Shown here one piece after another: positions 10,142-26,604 of a DNA stretch of 27,646 bases; the stretch's first letter is position 1, and every line of letters starts with the position of its first letter. Both the position numbers and the translations under genes were made by a program. The notes under the pieces are model-generated. The model had not been told where the DNA came from. It was given only the letters and a program-made list of their open reading frames with translations, and ran no database searches. This DNA is from a virus, in the IMG/VR virus record IMGVR_UViG_3300045999_010773, positions 1 to 27,646 of that record; one strand, 5' to 3'.

Positions 10142-10893
10142 CGGATTTTCACGGCCGTAAACGAAACGTTCGCATAGGAGCCCATCACGCCAGCATCAGA
10201 GCGCCTAATGATTGTTGGCCTTGTCCAAGCCGCCGGGTACCATGTGCCAGGGGATGGGGTTGCTTGGATCGTGGTCTCTAGCCAAGTTTCAAGGAGTGCC
10301 AGATTCGCACTGGTGACCCATCCTTCTACCTCGTAAACTTCGGTCGCCTTCAGCGAGCCGGAAATGATGTGGCTTCCCCCAGGGGTCAAAGCTGCGCTAG
10401 GCAGGTCGGTATAAGATTTTGGCCTTGATGTCAGGTTGACCACTGCACTACCAAACGTGAGTGTCCCTAGATTAAGTGTAGCAAATTGCTCCGACTCCTC
10501 TTCAATCCCGCGAAGGATAACGGCCAGCCTTTCGTTTGCATCTTCAAATGTAGCAGCAAGCCGCACAAATTCACCGGCAACAGCAAAAGATGGCGCCTCA
10601 ACAAAATTGCACGCAACAGGGGTCGACCATGTAAAACCAGGCGAAGATCCGCTCAGCGCAACAGTTGCGCCAACCGTACCAGTTCTTGCGGGATCATCTT
10701 CTAGGATTTTTGCAGCATTCCACGCCCGGAAGATTCCATCAAATGTAACAGAATCCGACTTTTTCACAATGCCCGACACCTTCCATTGACGCACCGCTCG
10801 GCCGCGATCTACGGATTCCCCGGAATAGCCGTAGGGCTGTTCGGTGAGGTTAGGGAATGTGTAGGTTGTGCCACTGTAGGAAATGGTGATCAT
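10138..10893 (-). CDS. distal tail-like minor tail protein
   Basis: A 251-residue protein from ATG 10893, overlapped with the tape measure stop by ATGA and with the next start in the same way. It begins MITISYSGTTYTFPNLTEQP and is beta-rich with 'RQWKVSGIVKKSDSVTFDGI' and a C-terminal half with 'VYEVEGWVTSANLALLETWL'. A gene of this size between the tape measure and the hub is normally the distal tail protein, which caps the tube and holds the hub. Two similar domains may be present (each with a 'V.G.v....' strand and a helix 'ALLETWLETT'), but this is only my reading. Confidence 0.65.
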   Translation of the reverse strand: MITISYSGTTYTFPNLTEQPYGYSGESVDRGRAVRQWKVSGIVKKSDSVTFDGIFRAWNAAKILEDDPARTGTVGATVALSGSSPGFTWSTPVACNFVEAPSFAVAGEFVRLAATFEDANERLAVILRGIEEESEQFATLNLGTLTFGSAVVNLTSRPKSYTDLPSAALTPGGSHIISGSLKATEVYEVEGWVTSANLALLETWLETTIQATPSPGTWYPAAWTRPTIIRRSDAGVMGSYANVSFTAVKIR

Positions 10894-13800
10894 AGGATCC
10901 TCTGGAGTGCGGCCATGTTTCGCGTTGCATCAGGTGTGACGACTTGCACATCCATCGGCCGATAGGTGCGCATCGCATTTTCCACCCCGGCTAGGCCTCG
11001 TTCAAGTCGTCCCATGGCCCCTGCCAGCCCCCTGGTGTCCATCGGCATGGAATGCGAGCCCACGGACTGCCTCATGGCCGCTGTGGGCCCCTGAGAGAAT
11101 GCCCCACGCTCTTTGAGCGCTGCTGTCACGTTGGCAGGCAATACAAGACCGCGAGATGGAGGGGTCCATTTGGAATATGCCGGGGCCGTGATTAGCCTAA
11201 GATTTCCCAGGCGATCCAGCCAGGATTCTTGGCCCAGCTCATTGATGGTGTAGCTGCCAGAAGGATCTACGCCGCCGCCTGCCCATCGTGCTTGTGGGGA
11301 GGCAAACGCTTTCAGTGTATCGGCCGATCCGACAACCAATTGATAAACAGATTCCCATTGCTCCCTTAGTGCAATAGTTTTTTCAAGCGTAGATTGAGTT
11401 TGGCCGGACATATCCGTATTCCCTTCGCCAAGGGAATCGTATGTTTCGTTAAGCGATTGAGCGGCGGTATTAAGCTTTCCGGTTTCATCGTAGACACCAG
11501 AGAGGTTTCTGTAAATTGAGGAGAGAGTTTCTTGAGGGTTTTCGTTGCTCAGTTTTTTGCCAAATTCATCAGCACGTTGAGCTGCTTGGGTGTATAGACC
11601 ATTGATCCCATAAAGGTATTCTTGATAATTTTGCCAATCTTCAATATCTAATGGGCGCCCAATTGCGTCCCTGACTCCTGTAATGCTGCCCGCAAGATTC
11701 CTTGCCTTGGCATCGGCATCTGCAAGTTCAGCGGCGATCTTGTCAATCAATCCCTCGGCGCCTGCTATTGGATGCTCAAGGATGTCAAAACCTTCCTTGT
11801 CCGCCATTCTTTTTGCTCCGCTCCGTGCCAACCTTCGGACAGTCGACGGATCTTCAAATTGCCTTGCTGGATCCATAAAAGAGACGACATTCTTCATGTT
11901 GCTAGTGCCACCCGGCGTTAGCGCTTTGACTATTGCCTCTTCATACCACTTCTGTTTTTCAAGTTTAGTTGCCTGAATGTTTAACGCCGCAAGCGCTCTT
12001 TCAAGATAGGTCGCTTTTTCTGATGCTTGGAAAAAAGCATCTGCTGACATATTCGTCGCATTTTCGATTTTCATAATCGCTTCAAGCTCTTCCCGGTCAA
12101 ACCACGATGATCTGTTCGGACCCATATCTTTGGGCATACTAAATAACGACATTCCGTTAGGGCCGTAAGAATAAGATGTCCTATAATTTGAAGTGGTTTG
12201 CGCCATGGCCATATCCGCAATTTCTTTGTATTCCCTCTCCTTCGGCGAGATATATCGCTTGTCAGCTCCTGCCCCGCCTCCTAAAACGCTTTGAGCGCCA
12301 GTACCTCCGAAAATTGCCTCACCGGAAAGCTTGCTTACATTTCCATAGGCATCCTTTAGTTTGTTTACGGAGCGGGTCGCGGCTTCTATTTGATCACGTT
12401 GATCTTTAATTAGCTTGGGGGCTTTCGATGCTTTATCGTTCAAATCTTTCCACGCATCGGACATGCTGGTTGTTGCGTCAATCACTTTTACGGTCTCGGC
12501 GTAAATTTTCTCCACGGGCTTTCCGGCCACTTCTATAACGCCCACAAGCTCTTTGACCTTCACAAATCTTTTCCCGGCAGCTTGATCAAGTCGCATCAAT
12601 TCTTGGCTAAAGTCTACCTCAAATCCTTTTGCCGCCGCTGCCGCCCGTTGTTGATTAGCGGCTGATTGTTGTTGCGCTTTTTGGGTTTCACGCTCAAGCG
12701 CAAAATTCACGCCAAGGCTCTTTGCTCGTTCACGCTCAAAGCGGGCCTGCTCCTTGCTAAGGCTGACAGATTGCTCCTGTATTTTGATCTGTTCTTGGAT
12801 AAGCTTTTTCTGCTCCGGTAGCATTGATGGATCTTGGAGTTTGCCTTGAAGCTCCAAAAGCCGCGATCTTTGCTGCAAGACGCCTTGATCGGCGGATCGG
12901 ATGGCAGATTCCTGTTCAAGAACTTGAGCCCGCTGCTTAAGTTCCAAGATCTTGTTTTCAATCTCAAAACGTTTTTGCGTGGCTTCAATGGCGCTTAGCA
13001 TTGCGCTACGCTCTATGCCTTCACTTTCGCGCTTGATTCGTGATATGCGCATCTCTGCTTCCCTGACTTGTTCAGCCGAAGCACCCCTATCTTTGAGCGT
13101 CTGCAGCTCTTGCTCTGCGAGTGTTTGGGCACGGCCAACCCTGGCGCGGCTAACATCAAACCCCGACTGCACAAGCTGAGCCTGAGCGCTAGCCAAATTA
13201 GCATAAGCATCCGCAACATTCCGCACCGCGCTAAGGCGAGCGGAGTCTAGGCCGGCCTGCTTATCCAGGTTGGCAGCGGTCATCTGTTCAACTTCTAACT
13301 TGCTTTTTGCAATCTCCAGTTTTTCTTTCGCGGATACAACTAGACCGCGTGCGGTGCGCTCTTCTTTTTCTATCAAGCTTTGCATTTTGTCTTGATTATT
13401 TAGCAGCTCCCTGTTTAATTCTTTTTCACGCTCCTTGAGATTTTTGATTTTTTCGCGTGAGTTGATCTGAACTTTAAGTATACTGGTTGGGTCGATGCCG
13501 CCAACTCTTTCCACGCGCTCTGCTGCGGTATCTGTCGTTGCAGGTGTCAGCGCCGGTCGCTCTTTTGATTTAACCGCTGCTAACTGTTCTTCTAGTTTGA
13601 TTTCCTCTCGAATCAGCGCCAAGTCTTTTTGTGTCTGCCTGGTAGCAGCTACGGCTTGTTCGCGCTCTTTGCCTTGCGCAAGTCGCAATTCTAGGGCGTT
13701 GATCTCTTTGTCGATCGCGCTGCGCCGCTCCCGGTCCGATGCTGGGATGGTCGCTTTTTTACTTTCAAGCGCATCTAGCCTCTTTCGATCGGCTTCCGCT

Positions 13801-16109
13801 TGCTTTACAAAATTCTGCGAAGCCTTGGATAGATTCTCAAGATTCTTGGCAGACGATCCTTTGTCAATTGCATCTAGCACATTTTTGTATTCCTTGAGCG
13901 CCGCGATTCTTGTTTCAAACACAGATCTTTGCGGATCGTTTCTGCCGAGCTTCCCTAGCGCAGCTTCTAGCGCCTTGATCTGACCATCAACTTTTTGCAT
14001 GTCAAGCTTAACGCTCAACGGAGTTTCAATCTTGCGCAGTTGAGCCTGAAGCTCGTCTAGCCTTTGCTGTGCTTCCGTTGTATCTAGCTTCAGTTTCTTT
14101 GTCTTATCAATCTCGTCTTGTGTTTTCTTGATCTCATCTCGTAGTTCATTGGCTTTTTTGGAAAGTTCTTCTGTGTCTTCGCCGGTTACCTTGATCTGGG
14201 AATCCAGCAGCGCATAGGTCCCTGCGGCGGCGGCGGCGGCAATGCCAAGGGCGATCACGGCTTTGCCTGGGTTCAGTGCTTGAACGAATGAAAGTAGCAC
14301 CGCGTAAACTTTTGTGCGTGCGTTTAACACACTTTGCGCAACTTGCAGCGCAGCCAAGCCCTGCGTCATCCCTTTGAACACAGCAATGCCAACCCCAAGG
14401 GCAATAGTGGTTTGCAGGAGCTGCTTTGTTGTGCGATCGGTTTCGCGGAAGTTTCCGGTCAGAATTGCGGCGGCGGCTGCAATGGAGAGGACAATCACAG
14501 CGCCTGATCCCATAGAGGCGATTGACAATCCTGCCGCCTTGGCACCTTTTGCCAGGTCGCTAAACCCACCCAGTTGCAAAACAACAGCATTGGTCGCCAT
14601 CATGGCCACGGTTGTAGCCGTTGCGGCAGCTGTCAGGGCGATCAGGGCCCCGGCTGCTGTCTTGACAGGGGCGGGAAGTGCGGAGATGCCCCCTAGCGCC
14701 GCGTTCAGCAGGCCTACGAAGGGTCGCAGTCCAGCGGCGATGACACCGCCGAGATGCGTGCCCAGACTGTCAAGGGTCCCGGTGAGCTGCTGAACTTCTA
14801 ATCCCATGCCAGACATAGAGGTTCTCGCTGTATCCGCTGCGCCCGCTGAATTTCCCATATCACGAAACATCTTCGTGATAGCCACATCAGATTGGTTGAG
14901 AATCGCGAGAAACTTTGAACCGGCTTCATCGCCAAACAACACGTTAGCCAGTTGGACCTGATCGGCTTGATTGAGCTTTTCAAGGCCACTTTTCAGGCTA
15001 ATGAAAACCTGATCCAGCGGAAGCAGCTTGCCGTTTGTGTCCACAACTTGAGCGCCGAGCTTTCGCATGACGCCCGTAAGCCTTTCCTGCCCACGGGCCA
15101 GGCCCATCACCTCAGGTGACGCACCGCCTGCGGCCTGCTGAATTTTCTGGAGGCCTGTGCGCAAGCCCGTGCCCGCCACGGATCCTTGGATGCCCGCGTT
15201 TGCCATGAGGCCAGCGGCGGCGGCGACCTCTTCCAGGGAGATGCCAAGCGCTTTGGCAATAGGGGCTGTGTACTCAAATGTATATCCAAGTCCTTCAATG
15301 CTTGCGTTGCTGCTGTTCGCCGTGTTGACGAGTACATCTACAACATGAGTTGTTTTGTCTACGTCTAATTGAAAGCCCCTGAGAGTGTTTCCGACAATAT
15401 CCCCAAAGCTTGCAAAGCCGGTTCCCGTTGCTTCCGCCCCTCTCACGACTCCTGGCAACGCAGTTTCAATCTCTTTGACCGAAAAACCAGCTCTGACAAG
15501 GCTTGTGGCAAGCTCTGCCACTTGCTTCGTTGTTCCAGCCGCTTCGATGCCAACCTTGTCCACAATGGTGCCAAGCCGTTCGTAGGCGCCGGTTTCCCCT
15601 GCGGCGGCAGCGGCAAGCCTTAGCTCGCCGTCAAGCTCCAAAAATCCGCTGATCAATCCGCGCAAGGATCCAAGGCTTGTGCCGATGGCGTCGGTCAGTC
15701 TTGACGTGAGGCTGATTGCAACACCTTCTACGGCCGCTTCGATTAGGTTGAAGTTTCTCTCGGCGCTTTTGCCGGCACTCTCTACAGCATTGCGGAATTT
15801 GTTTACGCTATCGACCGCTTGCTTAAAGGCCTCGCTTCCTTTGCTCAGCCGCTCAAGTTCTTGTGGCGTCAGGAATTGCCCTAAATTGTTTCTGAATTTA
15901 AGGTCAGTCTTGCTAAATTTTGCATTGACATCTTTAGCAGCTTTTTCTGCCGCCGCTACCAGTTCATCAAATGCCTTTTTGCCTTCTGCAGATAGTTTAT
16001 CCGAAAAATCACGGCCAAGCTTTCCGCCCGATAGCGCAATGGCGCGCGCGATCTCAGCTTCATTCTCAAGTAAAAAACTTACGCCAACTTCAACGCCCTG
16101 GCCTGCCAC
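10890..16109 (-). CDS. tail tape measure protein
   Basis: The predicted protein has 1739 residues and starts with GTG 16109 (MAGQGVEVGVSFLLENEAEI), 23 nt after the core of operon-head copy 5. Residues about 150-330 hold the TP901-type minor tail core: 'AELATSLVRAGFSVKEIETA', 'GISLEEVAAAAGLMANAGIQ' and 'GSVAGTGLRTGLQKIQQAAG' are its typical strings. Residues about 470-620 are hydrophobic (several 'ALIALTAAATATTVAMMA' type segments). Residues about 640-1220 are long coiled coils rich in Lys, Glu and Gln. At the usual 0.15 nm per residue this length would set a tail near 260 nm, so a long-tailed siphovirus. The tape measure also helps assemble the tube and can act in DNA entry. Plus-strand frames within it are shadows. 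Confidence 0.95.
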   Translation of the reverse strand: MAGQGVEVGVSFLLENEAEIARAIALSGGKLGRDFSDKLSAEGKKAFDELVAAAEKAAKDVNAKFSKTDLKFRNNLGQFLTPQELERLSKGSEAFKQAVDSVNKFRNAVESAGKSAERNFNLIEAAVEGVAISLTSRLTDAIGTSLGSLRGLISGFLELDGELRLAAAAAGETGAYERLGTIVDKVGIEAAGTTKQVAELATSLVRAGFSVKEIETALPGVVRGAEATGTGFASFGDIVGNTLRGFQLDVDKTTHVVDVLVNTANSSNASIEGLGYTFEYTAPIAKALGISLEEVAAAAGLMANAGIQGSVAGTGLRTGLQKIQQAAGGASPEVMGLARGQERLTGVMRKLGAQVVDTNGKLLPLDQVFISLKSGLEKLNQADQVQLANVLFGDEAGSKFLAILNQSDVAITKMFRDMGNSAGAADTARTSMSGMGLEVQQLTGTLDSLGTHLGGVIAAGLRPFVGLLNAALGGISALPAPVKTAAGALIALTAAATATTVAMMATNAVVLQLGGFSDLAKGAKAAGLSIASMGSGAVIVLSIAAAAAILTGNFRETDRTTKQLLQTTIALGVGIAVFKGMTQGLAALQVAQSVLNARTKVYAVLLSFVQALNPGKAVIALGIAAAAAAGTYALLDSQIKVTGEDTEELSKKANELRDEIKKTQDEIDKTKKLKLDTTEAQQRLDELQAQLRKIETPLSVKLDMQKVDGQIKALEAALGKLGRNDPQRSVFETRIAALKEYKNVLDAIDKGSSAKNLENLSKASQNFVKQAEADRKRLDALESKKATIPASDRERRSAIDKEINALELRLAQGKEREQAVAATRQTQKDLALIREEIKLEEQLAAVKSKERPALTPATTDTAAERVERVGGIDPTSILKVQINSREKIKNLKEREKELNRELLNNQDKMQSLIEKEERTARGLVVSAKEKLEIAKSKLEVEQMTAANLDKQAGLDSARLSAVRNVADAYANLASAQAQLVQSGFDVSRARVGRAQTLAEQELQTLKDRGASAEQVREAEMRISRIKRESEGIERSAMLSAIEATQKRFEIENKILELKQRAQVLEQESAIRSADQGVLQQRSRLLELQGKLQDPSMLPEQKKLIQEQIKIQEQSVSLSKEQARFERERAKSLGVNFALERETQKAQQQSAANQQRAAAAAKGFEVDFSQELMRLDQAAGKRFVKVKELVGVIEVAGKPVEKIYAETVKVIDATTSMSDAWKDLNDKASKAPKLIKDQRDQIEAATRSVNKLKDAYGNVSKLSGEAIFGGTGAQSVLGGGAGADKRYISPKEREYKEIADMAMAQTTSNYRTSYSYGPNGMSLFSMPKDMGPNRSSWFDREELEAIMKIENATNMSADAFFQASEKATYLERALAALNIQATKLEKQKWYEEAIVKALTPGGTSNMKNVVSFMDPARQFEDPSTVRRLARSGAKRMADKEGFDILEHPIAGAEGLIDKIAAELADADAKARNLAGSITGVRDAIGRPLDIEDWQNYQEYLYGINGLYTQAAQRADEFGKKLSNENPQETLSSIYRNLSGVYDETGKLNTAAQSLNETYDSLGEGNTDMSGQTQSTLEKTIALREQWESVYQLVVGSADTLKAFASPQARWAGGGVDPSGSYTINELGQESWLDRLGNLRLITAPAYSKWTPPSRGLVLPANVTAALKERGAFSQGPTAAMRQSVGSHSMPMDTRGLAGAMGRLERGLAGVENAMRTYRPMDVQVVTPDATRNMAALQRIL

Positions 16110-16219: not shown

Positions 16220-16651
16220 TCAGGTCAGACCTGCAACCTTGCATTGCCAAACCACAACAAACTGAGCTAGGCCCGTGGTGAGATCTTGAATTGTCACATT
16301 GTTTGCAGTGGCGCCAGGCAGTAGGACAAGGAGGCGATCTATGACGGCTTGGATATTGGATGCACCTCCTGCGGCAGGCTTCCACTGGGTGACGCGGATG
16401 GAGAATGATGGATTCGTGACAACCTCACCGGTTTGGCACGGCTCTGGAGCGTAGCCAATCGGCAAGCGTTCAACCTGGATTTCCACGCCCTGTTGCCTTG
16501 TGGTAGCTTCAATGGTCTCATTCGGCCACAGCCTAGAGATGGCTGGCCTTGTGGCGCCAGATTTGAGGATATGGGTTCCCAAGAGGGGGATGATGTCGGG
16601 ATCCGTGGCGATCAGGTCATAGAGTGCGCCGGTATCGGTTGGGAGTGTCAT
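16220..16651 (-). CDS. tail terminator-like protein
   Basis: A 143-residue protein from ATG 16651. It starts MTLPTDTGALYDLIATDPDI, then 'GVEIQVERLPIGYAPEPCQT' and 'PSFSIRVTQWKPAAGG', and ends with a helix 'IQAVIDRLLVLLPGATANNV' and a strand 'LAQFVVVWQCKVAG'. The helix, strands, helix, strand pattern with a short N-terminal helix (ALYDLIA) is that of siphovirus tail terminators, which cap the tube at the neck. Its place just before the tape measure is unusual for a terminator, as that gene usually precedes the tail tube gene; this fits the reshuffled layout of the window. Its start lies just after a perfect 10-bp inverted repeat (16695-16722). Confidence 0.6.
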   Translation of the reverse strand: MTLPTDTGALYDLIATDPDIIPLLGTHILKSGATRPAISRLWPNETIEATTRQQGVEIQVERLPIGYAPEPCQTGEVVTNPSFSIRVTQWKPAAGGASNIQAVIDRLLVLLPGATANNVTIQDLTTGLAQFVVVWQCKVAGLT

Positions 16652-16830: not shown

Positions 16831-17420
16831 CACTTCCCTTTCTTCCGCTGAATCTGTCCAGTTGCAATCAGGATTTGACGGGCGATGGGATCAAGAAACC
16901 TGTTGCGCCTGACGGGTTTTGCGGCTGCCATTTTGGCCGCTTGAGCTTTAGCCTCTCTGCGCCTAGCGAGATCTCCCGGCTTGAGATTTTTTGGCTTTGC
17001 GACGGTGCCGGCTTTCGCTGTGATCAAGCGCTTCCGTTTTGGCGCCGTTTTGGATGGCGTGATTCTACCGGCAAGCTCGCTGTGTTTCAGGCCTTTGGGC
17101 TTCCCGATAACGTTTTTCATCGGCGCCATCCTCTTTTTGGATGCCTCTTTGGCAGCCTTCAGAGCTTTGCTCCCCCGCGTCACGGCTCCTTTTTGGGCGC
17201 TAGAAGGCTTGCCCATGCCCATCAGCTTGGCCCTGGATCGCTTTAGGGAGCTTCTAGCGGCTAGGGTGCCGCCCTTCGGCTGAGAGGGAGGCTTGGCCTT
17301 CTTGGCGGCGGGAGCCGACTTTTTTCGTGCGGCGGCCAGCGATTTACTGCCCCCTCCCGGAGTGGAGGCGAAGCGGCCTGATGCATCACGAACGTAGTTG
17401 CGTCTGCCGCCGCGAGCCAT
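16830..17420 (-). CDS. very basic histone H1-like virion or DNA-binding protein, paralogue A
   Basis: A 196-residue protein from ATG 17420, 26 nt after the core of operon-head copy 6. By my hand count it has 33 Lys and 22 Arg against 6 acidic residues (28% basic). It starts MARGGRRNYVRDASGRFAST, the 'YxRDAxGRFAS' opening seen at the N-terminus of assorted phage proteins, and then consists of Lys/Ala/Pro-rich low-complexity sequence like a histone H1 tail (AAKKAKPPSQPKGG, KALKAAKEASKK, APKRKRLITAK). The C-terminus has a compact piece 'RRNRFLDPIARQILIATGQI'. Role not known: DNA packaging or condensation, or an assembly tail, are both possible. The next gene upstream is a paralogue with the same opening. 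Confidence 0.7.
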   Translation of the reverse strand: MARGGRRNYVRDASGRFASTPGGGSKSLAAARKKSAPAAKKAKPPSQPKGGTLAARSSLKRSRAKLMGMGKPSSAQKGAVTRGSKALKAAKEASKKRMAPMKNVIGKPKGLKHSELAGRITPSKTAPKRKRLITAKAGTVAKPKNLKPGDLARRREAKAQAAKMAAAKPVRRNRFLDPIARQILIATGQIQRKKGK

Positions 17421-17464: not shown

Positions 17465-17875
17465 CTATCGCCCTAGCGCCCTAGAAATGCCCTTTGCGAT
17501 GCGAGTGCCCAGGCTAGGTTTCTTTAGTCCGACCTTCACAAGGCCCTGGTCGATAACACGCCTATACACGGCCTCTTGAGCACGTTTCCCCTTGCCCTTG
17601 GCTTTTGCGGCATTATACGCTGCTTGTGCTTTTTTCTGGGTTTCTCCCATAATCCTGTTCCGCTCAGCGCGGGATGGTGCGCCATTGCTGGCGCTTTTTG
17701 CGGCAGGCTTAGCCTTGCCGGTGGAAGGCTTGGCCTTGCTAGCAGAAGGCGGCTTTCGGGCGGACTTGGGCGCGGATGCCTTCCTTGCAGAAGCCAGGCT
17801 TCCTCCCCCTCCAGAGGAAGAGGCAAACCGTCCGTTAGCGTCCCTGGTGTAGGTACGTCTGCCGCCGCGAGCCAT
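17465..17875 (-). CDS. very basic histone H1-like virion or DNA-binding protein, paralogue B
   Basis: I take ATG 17875 as the start, giving 136 residues; the open frame runs up to 18055 but would then pass through the tRNA and the operon-head element. The chosen start gives MARGGRRTYTRDANGRFASS, matching paralogue A, and the 20 bases covering start and next codons are identical in the two genes. Hand count: 18 Lys and 16 Arg against 5 acidic residues. The centre is Lys/Ala/Pro/Ser repeats (SASKAKPSTGKAKPAAKSAS), then a helical part 'ERNRIMGETQKKAQAAYNAA', and 'EAVYRRVIDQGLVKVGLKKP'. Core of operon-head copy 7 lies 23 nt upstream. Function unknown; condensation of DNA, or a tail-linked role, could be imagined. 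Confidence 0.75.
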   Translation of the reverse strand: MARGGRRTYTRDANGRFASSSGGGGSLASARKASAPKSARKPPSASKAKPSTGKAKPAAKSASNGAPSRAERNRIMGETQKKAQAAYNAAKAKGKGKRAQEAVYRRVIDQGLVKVGLKKPSLGTRIAKGISRALGR

Positions 17876-17894
17876 AAAAGAAAGGAAACTCTGA

Positions 17895-17909
17895 CGGAAG
17901 TTTTCCCGG
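17895..17909 (-). promoter_or_regulatory. operon-head element, copy 7, directly after the tRNA
   Basis: Minus strand reads CCGGGAAAACTTCCG. It begins one or two bases after the tRNA 3' end and its core is 23 nt before paralogue B's start. A tRNA-processing cut would therefore place the element at the very 5' end of the downstream RNA. Confidence 0.8.
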
Positions 17910-17910
17910 A

Positions 17911-17982
17911 AGCCAGTTGTCGGGATTGAACCGACGGCCTGCGCCTTACAAGGGCGCCGCTCTGCCGCTGAGCTAAACTGGC
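17911..17982 (-). tRNA. tRNA-Thr (anticodon UGU)
   Basis: The minus strand folds as a full cloverleaf: acceptor GCCAGTT/AACTGGC (7 perfect pairs), D stem GCTC/GAGC, anticodon stem GCGCC/GGCGC with loop CTTGTAA (anticodon TGT), T stem GTCGG/CCGAC with loop TTCAATC, discriminator T. No CCA is encoded. It reads threonine ACA codons. Its 5' end overlaps the last 10 bases of the preceding coding region, whose TAG is the D-side TA of the tRNA. No flanking attachment-site repeat was noticed. Confidence 0.93.
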
Positions 17983-18545
17983 GGCTTTGGAATTGTAGCG
18001 GATGGATCTTGGATGAATAAGGATCCTCGCGGCGGGATCGCATATTCTTCTCCATTCTCTCCTTTGACGATCGCGGCTTTCCCTCTGGCGCCTTTACTCA
18101 GTTCACACGCTCGAACCCACTTTTTTAACTTGACCGGCTTTCCGCCATCTGGCCACCACATGCCCGTAAGATAATACGTGACGCCCTCGACAAGATCCTT
18201 GCCTTCGATAAGCATCGGTTCTTTGTCGGTCTTTGGCGATTTTTTGACAGGTGCCGCTTTCGTGGGTGGTTGTGGCCCATCAAAGTAGGCCCATCCAATA
18301 ACACCTGCAAGGGGCTCAGTGGATGGATGGCTTTCTTCCCACCAGTTGCCTTCTTGATCGCAATATGCCACCAGCGCATATCTATTGCCCCAAGCTGGCC
18401 CGCGATGTCCGTCGATCTGGACTAAAACTTCGCGCCCTGCCGGAGGCATCTTGCCTGGGAGGCTATTCCACGCCATGGGAAGCGGTTTTGGTGTTGGCTC
18501 AATTTGCAACGGCAGAGAGGTTTGATCGTACATGGATGATTCCAT
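17973..18545 (-). CDS. DUF551-like phage protein
   Basis: I choose ATG 18545 (190 residues, MESSMYDQTSLPLQIEPTPK); ATG 18533 is an alternative and a TTG at 18566 extends it. Residues about 25-90 carry the pattern of the DUF551 family, small phage proteins with a Trp-rich fold: 'AWNSLPGKMPPAGREVLVQI', 'YCDQEGNWWEESHPS', 'GVIGWAYFDGP'. Residues about 95-190 form a second part with 'GVTYYLTGMWWPDGGKPVKL' and 'LKKWVRACELSKGARGKAAI', which may be another domain. Its last codons and TAG lie inside the tRNA gene (10-bp overlap). No operon-head element precedes it; the nearest upstream signal is the terminator after the reductase gene. Function unknown. Confidence 0.75.
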   Translation of the reverse strand: MESSMYDQTSLPLQIEPTPKPLPMAWNSLPGKMPPAGREVLVQIDGHRGPAWGNRYALVAYCDQEGNWWEESHPSTEPLAGVIGWAYFDGPQPPTKAAPVKKSPKTDKEPMLIEGKDLVEGVTYYLTGMWWPDGGKPVKLKKWVRACELSKGARGKAAIVKGENGEEYAIPPRGSLFIQDPSATIPKPPV

Positions 18546-18709: not shown

Positions 18710-21031
18710 TCACCCCGGTTTTGACAAGGGCAGCAGGCATTTGTCGGAATCACACCCCGCCGGGCCTACCTCCGTCAGTCCCCCCGCGTCAGACCTGCTC
18801 AACGCCGCCCCGAAGTCGTCCGACTGTCTGCGCTCCAAGACGGCGCCGTGGAGGCGATTGTAGGTGGCATGGTCGATCGGTTCAAAAGGCAAGCGCGGGA
18901 AGGTCTCGTTCGCGTCAAAGCGGGCGAGCAGTGCCGCCGAGATGTAGCCGCCGTCGCTTTGGATCGCTTCATAGATCGCGCTCGCCAGGGGCTCAATCTC
19001 CTCCTCTCGAAACTCAATTGTGGCGCTGGTGTTGTGTGTTGTGTAGTGCGTCTGTACTTGCATGTAGAAGTCAAACTGCGCCAAGGCGGAAATCTGGCTT
19101 AGGTCAACCTCATCTGCCCCTGGCAGGCTGGCCCACGGCACCTCCGTGGGGATCTCTACCAGCCACTCCGTGCACCGAGGATCAAAAGGATCATCCAACA
19201 GCCTCCCGTTTTCATCTTTGTCGCTCTGGCTCGGCACGATAGTGTAGCCGTAGTCCAAGCAGGCCAGGGCCACGGGGTCATTCTTGCGGAAGGTGATCCG
19301 TCGGATGAAGCGCTGAGCCTTGGGCGGATGCCAGCCCGGCGAAGCTCCCGTCAGCAAGCTCTTGGTGCCAGCGGGTTGCACGGTGGTGTAACGATTTGGC
19401 ATGCGCAGCCCATGGCGTTCGCAGTACGATCGAACTGCGCCTGCCACGGCATCACGCCAGGATCTCAAGTAAACACCTTCGGCATCGCGGAATGCGTCAC
19501 CCTCTTCCGTGGCTGGCCTTCCATCGGCGAACCATCGCAGCCATCCCACGCCAAAGGCCTCAACAAAAAAGTCAAACAGGCCAGTGAAGCTGATCCCGAT
19601 GATTGGATCCCATTCCCGGCTCTGCCGGAAACGGTGCACCTCGAAGCGGTGATGCAACAGGGACGCAGCGGAGATGGCGGCAGCGCGGAAGGCTTCTTCT
19701 TGTCCCCACATATCGTATGGACGGAGTTGATTTAGGTGAACCTCTGAAAGATTGCAATGGAATGTATCTCCAATGATCTCACCACATGGATTTAACCCAT
19801 ATCTGCTGATTCGATGTTGAACCTCATCTCCAAGCATTGTATGATTGGTTAGCGTATCGAGAAAGATCGCCCCACCAACGGCGCCGCCCGATTTGCTGGT
19901 GTATTCAGCCAAGAATGCCTGCTTCAACTGTCGCGTAGTCAACAGATCAGCATTTGCGCGGGCGATAGCTTCCGGTGCGTATTGGATGGCCCCCTCTCCA
20001 GAGAAGAATTGTTTGCGCACGCTGTCCACAACCTCATCTAAGCTAGGTTTTCGGTGAAACACACGGGTGTGATTGGCCATGCGCAAGGCGTCCCGCTCCG
20101 GGTCGATGCGCCAGCCTCCATCCGCATCTTGCTGCCATAGATTATCCTTTGCGGTCGCCGCTTCTGCGTCCCTTTCATGGAATTGCCTCATCCCTGCGCT
20201 CCTGCGGATATTCCCAGCTACAACCACGATTGCAGCTTCGTCGATCAAGAGGCAGCATTCCACGGATGTAAGCTGACGGCCCTGCGCACGGTTCAGAATC
20301 GCCGCGATGCGTCCCCAAAACTCTGACAACTTTACGGGGTTGGAGACTCCTCCAAAGCCTTTCAGGGGCTCGCCTGGGGGCCTGATGTGGGATAGATCAA
20401 CATGGAGATGGATGGGCCCTTTCCAATTAGAATCACTGGACAACTTAAGAATTGTTAAGTAAGCGTCGGTCCATCCCCTGCGGCTATCACCAACGCGCAG
20501 CGTGGTTTTGCCACCTTCATCAACAATTGCGGTTGTTTCAATCCGCTCACTCGCTGGCACTGTGCCAATGTCAGAAACGCTGTCGATCTCGATTCTGTTG
20601 AGCACCTTCGGCAATTGCTTGATATGCCAGGGCTCAATTTTTGCCCCCGTGCCACATCCCATCATTGCCAAATCCATCATTAGGGCGAATGACTCCCAAT
20701 CGACCAGATTCAGGGATGTGCAGTTGTAGGCGCCGCTGAAGTTTTCCGGCCGGGTGATCCAATCGGTCCCGCCCGCCCATAGCCAGCGCCCAGAGGGCAA
20801 GGCTTTCTGCTCCAGTTGCATGCGGCGCAGTAGGCTGATCTCGGCATCGGGCAACCGCCCGATTTCCGCCAGTCCGCTCAGGTTGCGCTCCACTGCGTCG
20901 CCCCAGCTTTCTCGGCCCTGGGGCCCCTTGCGGCTGTAGGTGCGGTAGAAGACTGGATTGGCCGAGGGGGCGGAAGAGGGGAATGCGTCGCCGTGGGATG
21001 CGGTCATGGGATCCGTGTAACGTTTTGTCAT
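18710..21031 (-). CDS. nrdJ: class II (adenosylcobalamin-dependent) ribonucleoside-triphosphate reductase, monomeric type
   Basis: The predicted protein has 773 residues (ATG 21031; ATG 21007 is an alternative). It makes deoxynucleotides from ribonucleotides. The catalytic pattern is complete: Cys104 in 'GAYNCTSLN' and Cys426 in 'FHCNLSE' (the redox pair), Cys416 in 'NPCGE' (414-418, the thiyl radical residue, with Asn414 and Glu418), and a C-terminal Cys760-X4-Cys765 pair for reduction. This matches the monomeric Lactobacillus-type enzyme and the class II enzymes of cyanobacteria. I see no intein and no partner gene, in keeping with a single-chain, cobalamin-using and oxygen-independent enzyme. 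No operon-head element precedes it, and it runs divergently from the plus-strand island, as expected for early or middle metabolism genes. A terminator follows it. Confidence 0.95.
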   Translation of the reverse strand: MTKRYTDPMTASHGDAFPSSAPSANPVFYRTYSRKGPQGRESWGDAVERNLSGLAEIGRLPDAEISLLRRMQLEQKALPSGRWLWAGGTDWITRPENFSGAYNCTSLNLVDWESFALMMDLAMMGCGTGAKIEPWHIKQLPKVLNRIEIDSVSDIGTVPASERIETTAIVDEGGKTTLRVGDSRRGWTDAYLTILKLSSDSNWKGPIHLHVDLSHIRPPGEPLKGFGGVSNPVKLSEFWGRIAAILNRAQGRQLTSVECCLLIDEAAIVVVAGNIRRSAGMRQFHERDAEAATAKDNLWQQDADGGWRIDPERDALRMANHTRVFHRKPSLDEVVDSVRKQFFSGEGAIQYAPEAIARANADLLTTRQLKQAFLAEYTSKSGGAVGGAIFLDTLTNHTMLGDEVQHRISRYGLNPCGEIIGDTFHCNLSEVHLNQLRPYDMWGQEEAFRAAAISAASLLHHRFEVHRFRQSREWDPIIGISFTGLFDFFVEAFGVGWLRWFADGRPATEEGDAFRDAEGVYLRSWRDAVAGAVRSYCERHGLRMPNRYTTVQPAGTKSLLTGASPGWHPPKAQRFIRRITFRKNDPVALACLDYGYTIVPSQSDKDENGRLLDDPFDPRCTEWLVEIPTEVPWASLPGADEVDLSQISALAQFDFYMQVQTHYTTHNTSATIEFREEEIEPLASAIYEAIQSDGGYISAALLARFDANETFPRLPFEPIDHATYNRLHGAVLERRQSDDFGAALSRSDAGGLTEVGPAGCDSDKCLLPLSKPG

Positions 21032-21032
21032 C

Positions 21033-21099
21033 AGACTGGCCTAGTCTTAGGCACGGGCGCCGCCCAAGTCCCTAATCTGGCCCCTGACATCCTAGGATG
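21033..21099. promoter_or_regulatory. divergent intergenic control region with two dyads
   Basis: Between the divergent starts at 21031 and 21105 there are AGACT-ggcct-AGTCT (21033-21047), directly before the reductase start, and a perfect 12-bp palindrome CATCCTAGGATG (21088-21099), directly before the plus-strand start. I see no clear -35/-10 pair. They could be operators or RBS-covering hairpins. Confidence 0.4.
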
Positions 21100-21104
21100 G
21101 CCCC

Positions 21105-21371
21105 ATGCCTACCGACGACCAAACCCCAGGCCAGCACGGCCCAGTCCCCGCAGAGCCCGCGAGTGCCATGGCGCTTACCCTGCCCCAAAGGTTCGAGCTG
21201 ACACGCATGGGGCAGGTGATTGACGCATGCCATAGCGTAGACGAGCTGAGGGGCATTGCCAAGCAGCTTTTAGAGGCCTGGCAAACCCAAAAAGCTGCCA
21301 CAAACTGGGTCATTAGCCAGCAAACAGGATGGAGGGCCGATGGCCTGCAATCTCACCCGGTTGATCGCTGA
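21105..21371 (+). CDS. small helical protein of cyanobacterial look, possibly NblA-related
   Basis: An 88-residue protein from ATG 21105 (a second ATG at 21168 would give 67 residues, starting MALTLPQRFELTRMGQVIDA). AGGA is 8 bases before the first ATG. Residues 22-75 are two amphipathic helices: 'LTLPQRFELTRMGQVIDACH' and 'ELRGIAKQLLEAWQTQKAAT'. The 'LTLxQxFxL' opening and a roughly 50-residue two-helix layout recall NblA (phycobilisome degradation) proteins, which some freshwater cyanophages are known to carry; the rest does not match closely, so this is only a suggestion. First gene of the plus-strand, probably early, island. Confidence 0.65.
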   Translation: MPTDDQTPGQHGPVPAEPASAMALTLPQRFELTRMGQVIDACHSVDELRGIAKQLLEAWQTQKAATNWVISQQTGWRADGLQSHPVDR

Positions 21372-21503
21372 TCCGCCTCCCGGCGATGACTGGAGGCCTC
21401 CCAAGGGTCGCGGTCGATCGTTTTGTGACCTTCCAAGGTGGAAGGCATTTCTTTACCTCATTATCTCAAAGTTTCGCAAGCCATCAATCACTCATCAGAA
21501 TCT

Positions 21504-22073
21504 ATGAGCAAAATCAAGTTAGGCGTGCCATACTACGGGCGGAGAAATACCACCCTTTGGGGACCCGACCCGTTGGGTTTCAGCTCCGTCTGCGCAATGG
21601 CGGCAGAGTTTATCAGGCCAGGTTGTTTGATTGGGCCAGGCGAGCGCGATGATCGCTATTTGAAGATGGTGCGTGAATTTGGGAATCCCGATACGGCTGA
21701 AGCCCAGATTCATGCGCTGCGAGGATTGGGCATTGGCGCTGAAGTGGGTCGCAATGGAGACTTATCGACCTTAATTGCCAACCTGATGAAGGGAATCCCT
21801 GTGCCGGTGTACTGGCTATTCAATGGCAATCCCCAGCGCCCCACCGATGGACGTTGGACACTTGCCGTAGGATGGGACAAGGCTGCCAGAGAGTTGATTA
21901 TGCACGATCCCTTAGGGCGAGCGGATCTTGATCGGGGCGGGTTTATCTCTACCGCGATCGGGGAAGGTTCGTTCTCTCGCTTCAAAAAGGGACGGTTTTG
22001 TAGTCGCTGGATGACAACAGACCATCGGGGCGTGCGTAGACCAGGCACCTATCTTCAGCTCTCAAAGATCTAA
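21504..22073 (+). CDS. C39-like peptidase fold protein with altered catalytic residues
   Basis: I choose ATG 21504 (189 residues, MSKIKLGVPYYGRRNTTLWG); a GTG at 21438 extends it by 22 residues. The overall string order matches the C39-like papain fold: 'LGVPYYGRRN' for the usual 'L.VPYYSQ.D', 'GFSSVCAMAAEFI' at the active helix, 'DGRWTLAVGWDKA' for the usual 'GGH.vvV.GYD', and 'ELIMHDPLGRAD' for the 'v.v.DPyg' strand. Read against the family pattern from memory, the catalytic Cys position is Ser, and the His is Arg or Trp (no His in that segment). It may bind peptide without cutting, or use the nearby Cys. Possible roles: lysis, host-factor binding. Catalytic reading is inference. Confidence 0.6.
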   Translation: MSKIKLGVPYYGRRNTTLWGPDPLGFSSVCAMAAEFIRPGCLIGPGERDDRYLKMVREFGNPDTAEAQIHALRGLGIGAEVGRNGDLSTLIANLMKGIPVPVYWLFNGNPQRPTDGRWTLAVGWDKAARELIMHDPLGRADLDRGGFISTAIGEGSFSRFKKGRFCSRWMTTDHRGVRRPGTYLQLSKI

Positions 22074-22124
22074 TCAAGCATCAACAAAATCTAGGCCGTA
22101 TTTGAATCATGCTTGCTGCGCTCA

Positions 22125-23510
22125 ATGAGTGATCAGGATTTTTTGCTCGCAACCGATCGAACACCACCGCACCTGCTGGAAGCTGAAGAGGCTGTCATCG
22201 GCGGGATCCTATTGGATCCTGACGCCATCACGCGAGTTGTCGGAATCGTAGAGTCGGAATCGTTCTATCTTGGTGCACATAAGGCTATTTTTGCAGCCGC
22301 GATAGCACTGCACTCTAAGGGCAAAGTTAGCGATCTTACAAATGTTGCAATGGCCCTAGCTGATGCCAATCAGCTAGAAAAAGCAGGTGGTCACGCAAGG
22401 CTCACAGAGCTGGTTGACAAAACACTTTCCACCGCGTCGATAGCGGGTGCCGCAAAGCTAGTCGCTGAAAAGCATCTTAGAAGAAAGCTGCTTGCAATCA
22501 CGGAAGAGATAAATGCTCTTGTTTATGACAAGGGCTGCAAAATTGGCAATCTGTTAGATGCAGCGGAAACAAAGATCTTTTCACTGACTGCAAACTCAGG
22601 CGATGAAGGTCCAAAATGGAGCGGAGATATTCTGGCGCGGGTATTTGATCAGATTACGATCTCATCAGGGGAAGAAAAAGGGCCCGGCATCCCAACAGGA
22701 TTCAACGATCTTGATTCTTTAACTCAAGGCCTGCAGCGGACTGATCTAATTATTCTTGCAGCAAGACCGGCCATGGGTAAGACGGCTGTGGCGCTTAATC
22801 TTGCAAGGAATGTGGCAAAGACTGGCTTGCCTGTGATCATCTTCTCTCTTGAGATGTCAGAAGAGCAGCTAATGAGTCGGCTCATTGCAATTGAGACAGG
22901 AATCGAGACAAGTCGCCAGCGTAACGGTGAATTAAGGAGAGAAGAATGGGGCCTGTTGGCTCACGGAGTATCTGAGCTTTCAAAAATACCTATCGCGACC
23001 AATGATAGATCATCCACGGGTGTTGCTGAGATGCGTGCGCAATGTAGGCAGCTCGCGGCAAAAATGGGCCAGCCTCCCGGCTTGATCATTGTGGACTACC
23101 TGCAGCTCATGGAAGGACGGGGAACCGATAACAGGGTACAGGAGGTGTCAAGAATCACCCGTAGCCTTAAGGGCATGGCGAAGGAGCTAGATACCCCCGT
23201 GATGGCGCTGTCACAGCTCAGCCGGGCAGTGGAGCAGCGCACAAATAAGCGCCCTATGCTGAGCGACCTGCGGGAATCTGGCTCAATTGAGCAAGATGCT
23301 GATTTGGTGGCGATGCTGTATAGGGATGAATACTATAACCCAGAGACACCAGATCGCGGGATCACTGAAGTGATAATCGCCAAAAGCCGCCATGGATCCG
23401 TCGGTACTGTAAGGCTTTTATTTGAGTCGCAATTTACTAGATTCAGGAGTGCTGAAGGCTTGCCAGGAAATGGGCACGGGGGAGGTAGGGAAGGATGGTC
23501 TGATGATTGA
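22125..23510 (+). CDS. dnaB: replicative DNA helicase DnaB
   Basis: I choose ATG 22125 (461 residues); a TTG at 22113 adds four. The N-terminal domain is 'PPHLLEAEEAVIGGILLDPD' and onward to about residue 110. The C-terminal RecA-like core has the Walker A 'ARPAMGKT' (about 213-220), the catalytic Glu in 'FSLEMSEEQ' (about 243), Walker B 'LIIVDYLQ' (about 320-327), and 'KRPMLSDLRESGSIEQDADL' near 375-394. Length is close to that of E. coli DnaB (471). No intein interrupts it. The 'EAEEAVIGGILLDPDAI' opening resembles cyanobacterial DnaB, in line with a cyanobacterial host. It unwinds DNA at the fork and loads or works with a primase and polymerase not seen here. Confidence 0.93.
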   Translation: MSDQDFLLATDRTPPHLLEAEEAVIGGILLDPDAITRVVGIVESESFYLGAHKAIFAAAIALHSKGKVSDLTNVAMALADANQLEKAGGHARLTELVDKTLSTASIAGAAKLVAEKHLRRKLLAITEEINALVYDKGCKIGNLLDAAETKIFSLTANSGDEGPKWSGDILARVFDQITISSGEEKGPGIPTGFNDLDSLTQGLQRTDLIILAARPAMGKTAVALNLARNVAKTGLPVIIFSLEMSEEQLMSRLIAIETGIETSRQRNGELRREEWGLLAHGVSELSKIPIATNDRSSTGVAEMRAQCRQLAAKMGQPPGLIIVDYLQLMEGRGTDNRVQEVSRITRSLKGMAKELDTPVMALSQLSRAVEQRTNKRPMLSDLRESGSIEQDADLVAMLYRDEYYNPETPDRGITEVIIAKSRHGSVGTVRLLFESQFTRFRSAEGLPGNGHGGGREGWSDD

Positions 23511-23795: not shown

Positions 23796-23942
23796 GCTTG
23801 CACCGCGCCTTAGCCTAGCGTAAACACGCAAAAGCTCCCTGGCATTGCGGCCAGGGATGATGACATCTCCAACTTGAACAGTCCAAAGGGGGCGCCCATT
23901 GTTTGGCCTAACGGCTAACAGTCGACCCCTTTGCTGTGTCAC
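23742..23942 (-). CDS. 66-residue basic protein coupled to the major tail protein gene
   Basis: A GTG at 23942 overlaps the major tail protein TGA (GTGA) and opens 66 codons. The product starts MTQQRGRLLAVRPNNGRPLW and continues 'TVQVGDVIIPGRNARELLRV'; it looks like a folded beta-helix protein, basic. It is convergent with and overlaps the plus-strand gene by 54 nt. A hairpin TCCCTGGC/GCCAGGGA with TTTT following (23857-23836, then toward 23830) lies inside the coding frame and could instead be the terminator of the tail protein unit, so the two readings compete. Confidence 0.5.
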   Translation of the reverse strand: MTQQRGRLLAVRPNNGRPLWTVQVGDVIIPGRNARELLRVYARLRRGASSVGGRASKELDPFPEDA

Positions 23943-24808
23943 GAGTTGTCGAAGATGGTATAGGCGGGACCGTCTGTAGTCAGGGTGGCTGAATACGTGC
24001 GACGGGCGCCAGCATCACCGGCTTCCTGAATACTGTCAATCTTGCCGTAGCAGGCAAGTTTCTCGGAAGTGCCTGCAGGTCCGATCCGCAAGTATTTGAC
24101 TGCGAGCTGTTGAGATGTGCCGTGCATCCGCATGATTTGCAGGAACTTGTGATCAACATTCTTGATGATTGTTGAGCCCGCAAACGGAATGGTGGTAGTA
24201 TCAGAAAGTGGCATCGAGATGCTTGAGCCAAGGGTCTCTTGGTCATGCGTGATGATCGTATCCTTGTTTGTGGAAGGATTCACGTTCGAGCTGGTGATGT
24301 TCAGCAAGCGAATCGCCTTGCCACTCCCATCCAACGGGTAGATGCCTGTCGTGACGGTGCCTGCAGAGACGGAGGCGGAGGCGATATTGGTTCCCGTTAG
24401 CGCATAGCTGATCGTGTGGGCGGGAGTTGTGGTGACGGCGGTTACCACTGCGGATGTGGTGTTCAGCCCGGCAAAGGGGGAGGGCAGGCTCGCAACCTTA
24501 ATCACATCGCCAACGGCCACACCAGTAGCAGCGGCAAAGGTCAGCTTGGCGACGTTGCTTTGCAGCTCGGCAGTTGTTGGAGTCAGGGTGGCCGAATTGA
24601 GCCTGATCTCAAAGGTGGAGTTGGTGGCGTCGCATTCAACCTTGGCGCTACCGCTAACAGCTCCGGCAGGATCGAACCATGTGGAAAGCTGGGCGCCATT
24701 GTTGGCGGCGGCCGCAGCTAGCGCTTCCAGGTCGATCGCCGTTGAGCGAATCAGCTTGACGAAGTGCAGTAAGCCGAGTTGCGGCTGATAGGCGACCTGA
24801 GATGCCAT
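23939..24808 (-). CDS. major tail (tube) protein
   Basis: A 289-residue protein starting at ATG 24808, 27 nt after the core of operon-head copy 8. It starts MASQVAYQPQLGLLHFVKLI and then has beta-strands with Ala/Thr/Ser-rich turns typical of siphovirus tube proteins. There is an inserted loop domain (about residues 70-150, 'TLTPTTAELQSNVAKLTFAA', 'SYALTGTNIASASVSAGTVT'), 'TKDTIITHDQET'-like sequence about residue 190, and a C-terminal strand pattern 'KLACYGKIDSIQEAGDAGAR' with 'RRTYSATLTTDGPAYTIF', a common end of tube proteins. It polymerises into the tail tube. Placing it after the assembly chaperone is unusual (it normally precedes). Confidence 0.7.
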   Translation of the reverse strand: MASQVAYQPQLGLLHFVKLIRSTAIDLEALAAAAANNGAQLSTWFDPAGAVSGSAKVECDATNSTFEIRLNSATLTPTTAELQSNVAKLTFAAATGVAVGDVIKVASLPSPFAGLNTTSAVVTAVTTTPAHTISYALTGTNIASASVSAGTVTTGIYPLDGSGKAIRLLNITSSNVNPSTNKDTIITHDQETLGSSISMPLSDTTTIPFAGSTIIKNVDHKFLQIMRMHGTSQQLAVKYLRIGPAGTSEKLACYGKIDSIQEAGDAGARRTYSATLTTDGPAYTIFDNS

Positions 24809-24831: not shown

Positions 24832-24846
24832 CTCAAGTTTTCCCGC
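24832..24846 (-). promoter_or_regulatory. operon-head element, copy 8
   Basis: Minus strand reads GCGGGAAAACTTGAG, with the first base G in place of C. It overlaps the final base of the preceding TAG and its core is 27 nt before the tail protein start. Confidence 0.75.
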
Positions 24847-25541
24847 TAGACAATTTGCAAGATTGCTCCCGCTCTTGAGCTACCAAAGCCCTTGGGATTC
24901 ACAAGCTCAGCAGGGATTTTCAGCCTCATCGAGTGCCCCGCGTTGATTGCGTCCCCCTCTAAGTCAAGGCAGGTAAACTCAAGCGGCCTACCTGACGCCT
25001 CAGGCTTGGCAATCAGGAAGCCACCCCACTGGTCTTGGCCCACCCGATACGGGGCAAGCAGGATCGCAGCAGGAGATGACAGGCACAGCCTAGAAGGCGG
25101 TTTCTTGCCTTCCCCTTGCGCCATCAGGTCGTCAAACCATGGCCCGTCAAGCCAGAAATCTTCATGCAGCTCACGGTCTACCAAAGCCGCCAGTGCTGCC
25201 CCTGCCTCGCTAGGCGGCCGTGGTTTCTCTTCCACATCCGCCCATGCGTAAAAATCCTTGATTGGCAGCCAATCAGGAGGTTGCCCCCCGGCCGCGCCTA
25301 TCACGGTGCGTTGCAAGGCGAAAACAAGCTGTGCAACCTGTGCAGTGGCTAACTCCTCTTCGTGAAGCCGCCGCTTTTTGGCCTTGACGCCCGCTTCGAC
25401 CGCTTGGATGATAAACGCCCCAGGGAGTGAGCCGTAGTTTTCGCGGCTAAACTCGGGGGCGCCGGGCCATAATTCTCGGCATTCCCAGAAGAGTTCAATG
25501 AAGTCGGGTCGCTCAAGATTGACCTCATCTCCTCTGGCAAC
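24846..25541 (-). CDS. tail assembly chaperone, frameshift extension (T part of a G/GT pair)
   Basis: This second frame runs from the slippery site to a TAG at 24848-24846 and encodes 231 residues. The whole product is a fusion from ATG 26104 of 188 residues plus these, 419 in all, after a -1 slip. The frame is closed by a TGA (25553-25551) just before the slip site and has no ATG, GTG or TTG for 75 codons, yet reads as clean protein: 'VARGDEVNLERPDFIELFWE', 'CRELWPGAPEFSRENYGSLP', 'GAFIIQAVEAGVKAKKRRLH', 'EEELATAQVAQLVFALQRTV'. Only a 156-residue TTG-started piece is visible if the slip is not considered. Tail assembly chaperones of siphoviruses are commonly made this way, the short G and long GT forms binding the tape measure and tube subunits. 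Confidence 0.8.
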   Translation of the reverse strand, partial: VARGDEVNLERPDFIELFWECRELWPGAPEFSRENYGSLPGAFIIQAVEAGVKAKKRRLHEEELATAQVAQLVFALQRTVIGAAGGQPPDWLPIKDFYAWADVEEKPRPPSEAGAALAALVDRELHEDFWLDGPWFDDLMAQGEGKKPPSRLCLSSPAAILLAPYRVGQDQWGGFLIAKPEASGRPLEFTCLDLEGDAINAGHSMRLKIPAELVNPKGFGSSRAGAILQIV

Positions 25542-26104
25542 TTTTTTAGGTCATCCTCAAGCTGTCGTTGCGCTTTCTCTAGGTCAACTTCGCCCATGCC
25601 TGCCGTCAGCTCCGTGTTGGCAAATTCATAAATCAAATCCTGCAAGTGTCCCGGCAGCTCGGTGGTCATCTGATCGGTCCAATCAGGAGTATTTCGCCTA
25701 AGGATCACGGTGATTGTGCGCGTCCTGACGATATTCTGAGCATCTTTCACCTGCTCAATTGCATCTTTAACCAGATCCTCGTTTTCAACGATAATCCGCG
25801 CTTCCTCTTCTGTTGGGCGCCATGTCCCTTTGATGTTGCCAAATAGCGAGAGCAGAAGCGCGTAGCACTTCGGACCATTCCACGATTCCTCATCACCAAT
25901 CCTTGCAGCAAGTTCTACGGCTCGCTTGTAGAGGATTTGAAATTGAAGATTGCTAGGATCAGCGTCCCTGATGCCCTGCATCTCTGTGGCGTCCAGGTAT
26001 CCCTTGCGGGGGATCTCAAGCTCACCGTCAAGCCATTTGATCGTTTCAATATCACCGCCGACAACCGTTGGCCTCGCCTTCCATGCAAGCTGGCTCCAAC
26101 TCAT
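25349..26104 (-). CDS. tail assembly chaperone, short form (G)
   Basis: A 251-residue protein from ATG 26104, coupled to the gene before it by ATGA. Residues 1-188 look conserved: 'MSWSQLAWKARPTVVGGDIE', 'LSLFGNIKGTWRPTEEEARI', then 'RTRTITVILRRNTPDWTDQM' and 'LPGHLQDLIYEFANTELTAG'. Codons 186-188 are CTA AAA AAG, giving the A_AAA_AAG heptamer (25547-25541). After this point the zero frame becomes a low-complexity Ser/Lys/Arg tail (SLGRLSSKRSKRASRPKS), typical of sequence constrained by another frame. It lies upstream of the tail tube gene, whereas lambda and most relatives have it between the tube and the tape measure genes. Confidence 0.8.
   Translation of the reverse strand: MSWSQLAWKARPTVVGGDIETIKWLDGELEIPRKGYLDATEMQGIRDADPSNLQFQILYKRAVELAARIGDEESWNGPKCYALLLSLFGNIKGTWRPTEEEARIIVENEDLVKDAIEQVKDAQNIVRTRTITVILRRNTPDWTDQMTTELPGHLQDLIYEFANTELTAGMGEVDLEKAQRQLEDDLKKLPEEMRSILSDPTSLNSSGNAENYGPAPPSLAAKTTAHSLGRLSSKRSKRASRPKSGGFTKRS
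25541..25547 (-). other. programmed -1 frameshift site A_AAA_AAG
   Basis: The heptamer is in the zero frame as CT[A AAA AAG], identical to the E. coli dnaX slippery sequence. Three bases downstream CCAGAGGAG (25537-25529) can pair with CTCTTCTGG (25493-25485) over a 35-nt loop, with one G-U pair. A purine stretch GAGGATG ends 3-4 bases upstream of the heptamer's first A, and could act as an internal Shine-Dalgarno stimulator. The downstream stem is a proposal; the heptamer and the frames are seen. Confidence 0.85.
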
Positions 26105-26604
26105 TTAATCTTCCTCCAAGCCGAAGTGAATGCTGTCTTCCATTGTAGCGCAATCGGATATGGTTCGATGCCAGGATTCACGATCGTGCCAAGCACGGCA
26201 TCAGTCCATGGCCTGGCAGGGAGTTTAACTTTTTCCTTGGTTTTATCGCCCCAAGGGTAGATCTCGGCGCCATAATGAACAGCCGCTGCATAGGGCTCTG
26301 TCCACATAAACATGATCAGCAAGCCCGTGATTCGATATTCATTGCTTTGCCGCAACCGACCTTGATCCACAATGTTGCGTGGGCTAAACACGCGATAGCC
26401 TGGCCCCCTGCGACCCCGGGAATCCAGCGAGCCACGCCTAATGGTCTCTCGTGGCCATTGCCAGACCGGCGACCCCATGGCATCTTGGAAGGCGGCATTC
26501 AGCTCAGGCGCAACCATTTGCGTGGCCATCACGGCCGCACGCTGTGCCTTGCCCGCAAAATCAAGCTTAACTCGAACAGTGCCAACTTTTGCCCTGATCC
26601 TCAT
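26101..26604 (-). CDS. HK97 gp10-like tail completion/neck protein
   Basis: A 167-residue protein from ATG 26604, overlapped on both sides by ATGA. Basic N-terminus (MRIRAKVGTVRVKLDFAGKA), a helix with 'AAVMATQMVAPELNAAFQDA', then 'PGYRVFSPRNIVDQGRLRQS' and 'FMWTEPYAAAVHYGAEIYPW', finishing 'KLPARPWTDAVLGTIVNPGI'. The 'W..PYA..VHYG....... RPW' order is that of the HK97 gp10 group, small proteins in the neck-to-tail set. It would join head and tail. I am fairly sure of the family, less of the exact role. Confidence 0.75.
   Translation of the reverse strand: MRIRAKVGTVRVKLDFAGKAQRAAVMATQMVAPELNAAFQDAMGSPVWQWPRETIRRGSLDSRGRRGPGYRVFSPRNIVDQGRLRQSNEYRITGLLIMFMWTEPYAAAVHYGAEIYPWGDKTKEKVKLPARPWTDAVLGTIVNPGIEPYPIALQWKTAFTSAWRKIK

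Follow-up and report, generated by a model that had tools for sequence, protein, structure and literature searches.

Probable programmed -1 ribosomal frameshifting in a G/GT-like tail gene pair of a virus related to cyanosiphophages

The closest known system is the pair of tail assembly chaperones, G and GT, of phage lambda (Levin 1993; Xu 2004, 2013, 2014; reviewed in PMC5009743). Their genes belong to the late tail module, the two products arise by a -1 slip at G_GGA_AAG close to the 3' end of G, and neither gpG nor gpGT is present in virions (PMC5009743). In lambda, G extends for 140 amino acids up to the slip and T is annotated as 144 amino acids. In most siphophages the two chaperone genes are flanked by those for the major tail protein and the tape measure protein (PMC6070908), a position that is usual but not strictly defining. 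A second point of reference is E. coli dnaX, which is unrelated in gene and purpose but combines an A_AAA_AAG heptamer with a downstream hairpin.

The locus described here lies on the minus strand of a 27,646-base IMG/VR virus record, which in its full length is referred to below as the window. A zero-frame ORF (25349..26104) encodes a G-like protein of 251 amino acids, 188 of which precede the slip at an in-register A_AAA_AAG heptamer (25541..25547, read CTA AAA AAG), while the 63 codons past it form a tail rich in S, R and K (25349..25540). A -1 slip re-reads base 25541 and enters a frame (24846..25541) that is open for 231 codons and ends at a TAG (24848-24846). The first ATG, GTG or TTG in that frame is a TTG at codon 75 (25316), which would give an ORF of only 156 amino acids, and the G-T fusion has a length of 188 + 231 = 419 amino acids. 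The register of the heptamer, the long -1 frame devoid of an early start and the length of the fusion, all proposed in a sequence-only reading of this locus, were verified from the reading frames; the TGA said to close the -1 frame upstream does so (25551..25553), but at a distance of 6 bases, with one codon (CCT) between, and not 9.

An open -1 frame of this kind is not rare by itself, as at least 231 codons are open at 64 of the 8,224 in-register positions in the window. The likely genes of the window contain 18 in-register heptamers with an A or T second triplet, of which that at 25547-25541 alone leads to a -1 frame of more than 29 codons; the -1 frames entered from the other in-register A_AAA_AAG sites (6627, 17325 and 18126) do not exceed 28 codons, and these sites were rejected. 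The weight of the argument rests on the combination of heptamer and open -1 frame, and on conservation, not on the open frame alone.

Homologues of the T part (conserved family A4) occur in the cyanosiphophages P-SS2, S-CBS2 and S-CRES1/2/3 and, as detected by profile search, at 75 IMG/VR loci, and a G-like ORF precedes T at every homologous locus whose upstream sequence was read. The T part also matches PHROG 34388 (phrog_34388), a family of unknown function, in all 37 members scanned (E 2.5e-9 for the window). When G, T and the major tail protein were each used as a single query against viral contigs, no match was obtained, nor did a tblastn search of G against phages give one, and one candidate homologue (MT835517, E 0.09) looked like noise once its frames were read. 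A contig from a cyanobacterial MAG, found with a five-row alignment, has the same arrangement with a G_GGA_AAG heptamer. Given that the best named relatives are P-SS2, S-CBS2 and S-CRES1/2/3, and that a related locus is found in a cyanobacterial MAG, a cyanobacterial host is likely for the virus of the window.

Collapsing the loci at 80% T identity left 40 clusters, and a canonical heptamer is found at the equivalent place in 39 of them: A_AAA_AAG in 16, G_GGA_AAG (the heptamer of lambda itself) in 19 and G_GGA_AAA in four. With the three amino acids fixed and the codon usage of each locus applied, canonical heptamers would be expected by chance in 3.1 of the 40 clusters; the clusters are related, so the product of per-cluster probabilities was not used as a P value. 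Elsewhere in the same G ORFs, canonical heptamers occur at one in 5,960 in-register positions. The existence of KK and GK forms means that a slippery heptamer is reached via different residues. The 40th cluster (L053/L054, about 3968-3974) has a weaker, degenerate G_GAA_AAG followed by TAA, with T intact, and is a natural test of minimum site strength. The zero-frame stop is located 0 or 1 codon past the heptamer in 30 of the 40 clusters, while in the window and its own clade (L007, L009 and L010) and in P-SS2 and L037 the zero frame continues for 39-80 codons.

The pairs P-SS2 gp064/065, S-CBS2 gp015/016, S-CRES1 gp72/73 and S-CRES3 gp79/80 are true homologues with the same slip arrangement, and the ORF before T ends with an in-register G_GGA_AAG in P-SS2 and S-CRES3 and an in-register A_AAA_AAG in S-CBS2 and S-CRES1. 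In these four phages T begins at the heptamer, 39-55 codons ahead of any start codon. Comparison across the homologues, which had been suggested as a check, places the beginning of T homology at most about 13 codons from the slip, far ahead of any start codon in many members, and thus, as in lambda, the downstream frame lacks a start of its own and is conserved from the slip site.

Substitution patterns in the overlap point in the same direction. In the L010 clade, the best-sampled relatives (16 distinct sequences), the variable columns number 29, 9 and 9 at T codon positions 3, 1 and 2, respectively; because they accumulate at T position 3, which is the second position of the zero frame, T is constrained and the zero-frame tail is not. 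The homologues therefore have the opposite of the pattern named beforehand as evidence against frameshifting, namely a preserved zero-frame tail with an unpreserved T frame. Between S-CRES1 and L074, the 55 codons from slip to first start, which lie past the zero-frame stop, have pS 0.30 and pN 0.04, and the corresponding 39 codons in S-CBS2 and L044 have pS 0.87 and pN 0.06. Taken together, the conserved heptamer, the conservation of T from the slip, the constraint on the T frame and the unconserved zero-frame tail support the earlier proposal, and comparative sequence evidence indicates that programmed -1 ribosomal frameshifting almost certainly takes place at A_AAA_AAG.

The genes surrounding the pair are those of a tail module. 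Upstream of G is a neck/tail-completion-like gene (26101..26604, minus strand), a homologue of S-CBS2 gp014 with a weak match to phrog_26, and directly downstream of T is the gene for the major tail (tube) protein (23939..24808, minus strand), which matches phrog_38654 (tail protein) and, weakly, PF06199, and has homologues annotated as major tail protein. The minus-strand order then continues with inserted non-structural genes, a gene for a 143-amino-acid homologue of S-CBS2 gp018 (16220..16651) and, about 8.7 kb downstream of T, the tape measure gene (10890..16109; phrog_1533 and others). In marine relatives, gp018 separates T from the major tail gene. The genes keep the order neck-G-T-(gp018)-major tail-tape measure, and wherever the sequence of a relative extends far enough, the pair is part of the tail module.

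The insertion that separates the tape measure gene from the major tail gene includes a class II ribonucleotide reductase-like gene on the minus strand and a DnaB-like helicase gene on the plus strand (18710-23510). The long contigs of the closest relatives have the pair, the major tail gene, a gap of several kb, the 143-amino-acid gene and the tape measure gene, and because this layout is shared, the odd spacing in the window is not an assembly fault; given the several kb between the major tail gene and the 143-amino-acid gene in those relatives, part of the insertion may be conserved as well. Two proteins encoded nearby on the minus strand (16830-17420 and 17465-18055) and two on the cyanobacterial MAG contig (L091, 1006-2202 and 3427-4458) are otherwise unlike but have the N-terminal motif GGRRxYxRDxxGRFASxxGG in common, which resembles a tag or sorting sequence shared by late phage proteins. 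A tRNA-Thr (TGT) gene in this late region (17911-17982, minus strand) overlaps the N-terminal part of ORF 18055-17465, the true start of which is probably the internal ATG of its MARGGRR motif. In S-CBS2, S-CRES1 and S-CRES3, an HNH endonuclease gene on the strand opposite to T directly follows T and overlaps its end (L003 4578-5042, L004 4578-5045 and L005 4566-4988); it is absent in the window.

The label of tail assembly chaperone, and with it the analogy to lambda G/GT with a dnaX heptamer, has good support without being proven. The slip architecture and A_AAA_AAG fit, as does the genomic context. However, both in the window and in its relatives, the pair is located upstream of the major tail gene instead of separating it from the tape measure gene, and neither protein significantly resembles those of lambda or any known G or T family. 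The proteins are also longer than in lambda, with about 165-190 amino acids of G up to the slip and 204-231 amino acids in T. When members were scanned singly against the Pfam family of lambda T (Phage_tail_T, PF06223), the best score was 17.6 bits against a curated cut-off of 25.9 bits; the sub-threshold matches, found in a few of the 37 members (best E 0.0012), fall in the same region of T. A profile-profile comparison of T with lambda T by hhalign returned a probability of 6%. Fold searches with models of mean pLDDT 87 produced no named significant match for either protein; each had one confident match, in both cases to an unnamed viral protein, and the remaining matches were weak.

The most probable alternative is one in which the frameshift is real and the products assist assembly in some other way or are a minor structural component of the neck or tube. 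The lack of sequence or fold matches to known chaperones and the location between neck and tube genes speak for it, but a tail-module gene pair with two products from conserved -1 frameshifting is the hallmark of chaperones, and the sub-threshold Phage_tail_T matches cluster in a single region. Moreover, in some marine members the tape measure gene starts about 100 nt or less from the major tail gene, which leaves no space there for another candidate pair. In the published proteome of P-SS2 virions (PMC2784084, Table 2), ORFs 061-063 and 066-069 are listed whereas 064 (G) and 065 (T) are both missing, as expected if chaperones leave the particle and as in lambda, with the proviso that non-detection is weak evidence. 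This alternative is accordingly judged unlikely. If the frameshift is accepted, a tail-chaperone role for G and GT is very probable, and as deduced from architecture, position in the tail module and the non-listing of both P-SS2 products it is well supported, not proven.

The remaining alternatives concern the change of frame itself. At the window site there are six consecutive A, so that the frame could in principle be changed by RNA polymerase and not by the ribosome. Polymerase slippage usually needs A runs longer than six, and it is very improbable here because over half of the homologous sites are G_GGA_AAG or G_GGA_AAA and lack a long homopolymer. It is still harder to maintain that T is a separate gene with its own start (TTG 25316 in the window). 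Every member does contain potential start codons, which gene callers select: the P-SS2, S-CBS2, S-CRES1 and S-CRES3 pairs are annotated as separate ORFs with no frameshift marked, and, as had been predicted for T, P-SS2 gp065, S-CBS2 gp016 and the S-CRES1/3 'tail assembly protein' begin too far downstream. Conserved T sequence is nonetheless found 39-110 codons ahead of the first start in many members, it is under purifying selection there, and the heptamer is preserved more often than the encoded amino acids require. Finally, sequencing error, a pseudogene or chance overlap might be suspected for a single metagenomic contig, but this explanation is refuted by the comparative data, with the same arrangement in 40 clusters that include isolates sequenced by different groups and with T under purifying selection.

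Signals that might stimulate the slip are less uniform than the slip site. In the window, a two-part hairpin of 17 pairs begins 3 nt past the heptamer (25485..25537, minus strand), with an outer stem of nine pairs between CCAGAGGAG (25537-25529) and CTCTTCTGG (25493-25485) and eight inner pairs, and has a predicted energy of -22.4 kcal/mol over 55 nt (z about -3.1). The nine-pair stem of the sequence-only reading is thus present and is the outer part of a longer hairpin, but it is not a conserved part of the signal: an equivalent hairpin is absent in the close relatives L007 and L010, and no conserved downstream structure was found across the family, where the mean z of -0.82 is a small shift from the -0.34 of control windows. 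The resemblance to dnaX in heptamer and hairpin is limited accordingly. A GGAGG-like stretch 3-8 nt upstream of the heptamer is enriched (P 4e-6), but as a Shine-Dalgarno-like stimulator it was rejected, since synonymous resampling of the same amino acids gives -5.9 kcal/mol against the observed -6.0 and removes the enrichment, which, unlike in dnaX, is explained by amino-acid content. The heptamer is the sole conserved frameshift signal that the comparisons made here demonstrate.

The locus is thus very likely a G/GT tail assembly chaperone pair of a siphophage, probably cyanobacterial, that makes G by read-through and the 419-residue GT by the slip. Most ribosomes would pass A_AAA_AAG in the zero frame and produce G; in a minority, the two lysine tRNAs would re-pair one base back, as the comparative evidence suggests, and yield the fusion. 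By analogy with lambda, the G part may coat the tape measure protein and the T part may recruit tail-tube subunits, with the G:GT ratio set by the efficiency of frameshifting, which the hairpin in the window may raise locally.

Because the proteins have no sequence similarity to known chaperones and the genes are positioned ahead of the major tail gene, the pair represents a separate lineage within an already known kind. It is possible, if rather doubtful, that the cyanosiphophage pair is independent in origin or has diverged past recognition from lambda-type pairs, and has settled permanently ahead of the tube gene, most lineages having a zero-frame stop directly past the heptamer. If so, a stop directly after the heptamer would force each ribosome to shift or to terminate at once.

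The mechanism is a textbook one, and what is new is its extension to a cyanosiphophage group in which it is unannotated in the relatives checked. Among the openly available papers searched, no description of frameshifting in these cyanosiphophages was found, and the word frameshift is absent from the P-SS2 paper; within that scope, this does not amount to proof of priority. For a widespread group of cyanobacterial siphophages, the analysis points out what are likely to be their missing tail assembly chaperones, and it corrects an error that recurs in annotations, by which T genes are truncated and left unjoined to G. The family also offers a natural series: its members make a conserved product but differ in the type of heptamer, in how far away the zero-frame stop is and in downstream structure, which makes them useful for studying how a fixed product ratio is tuned by phages.
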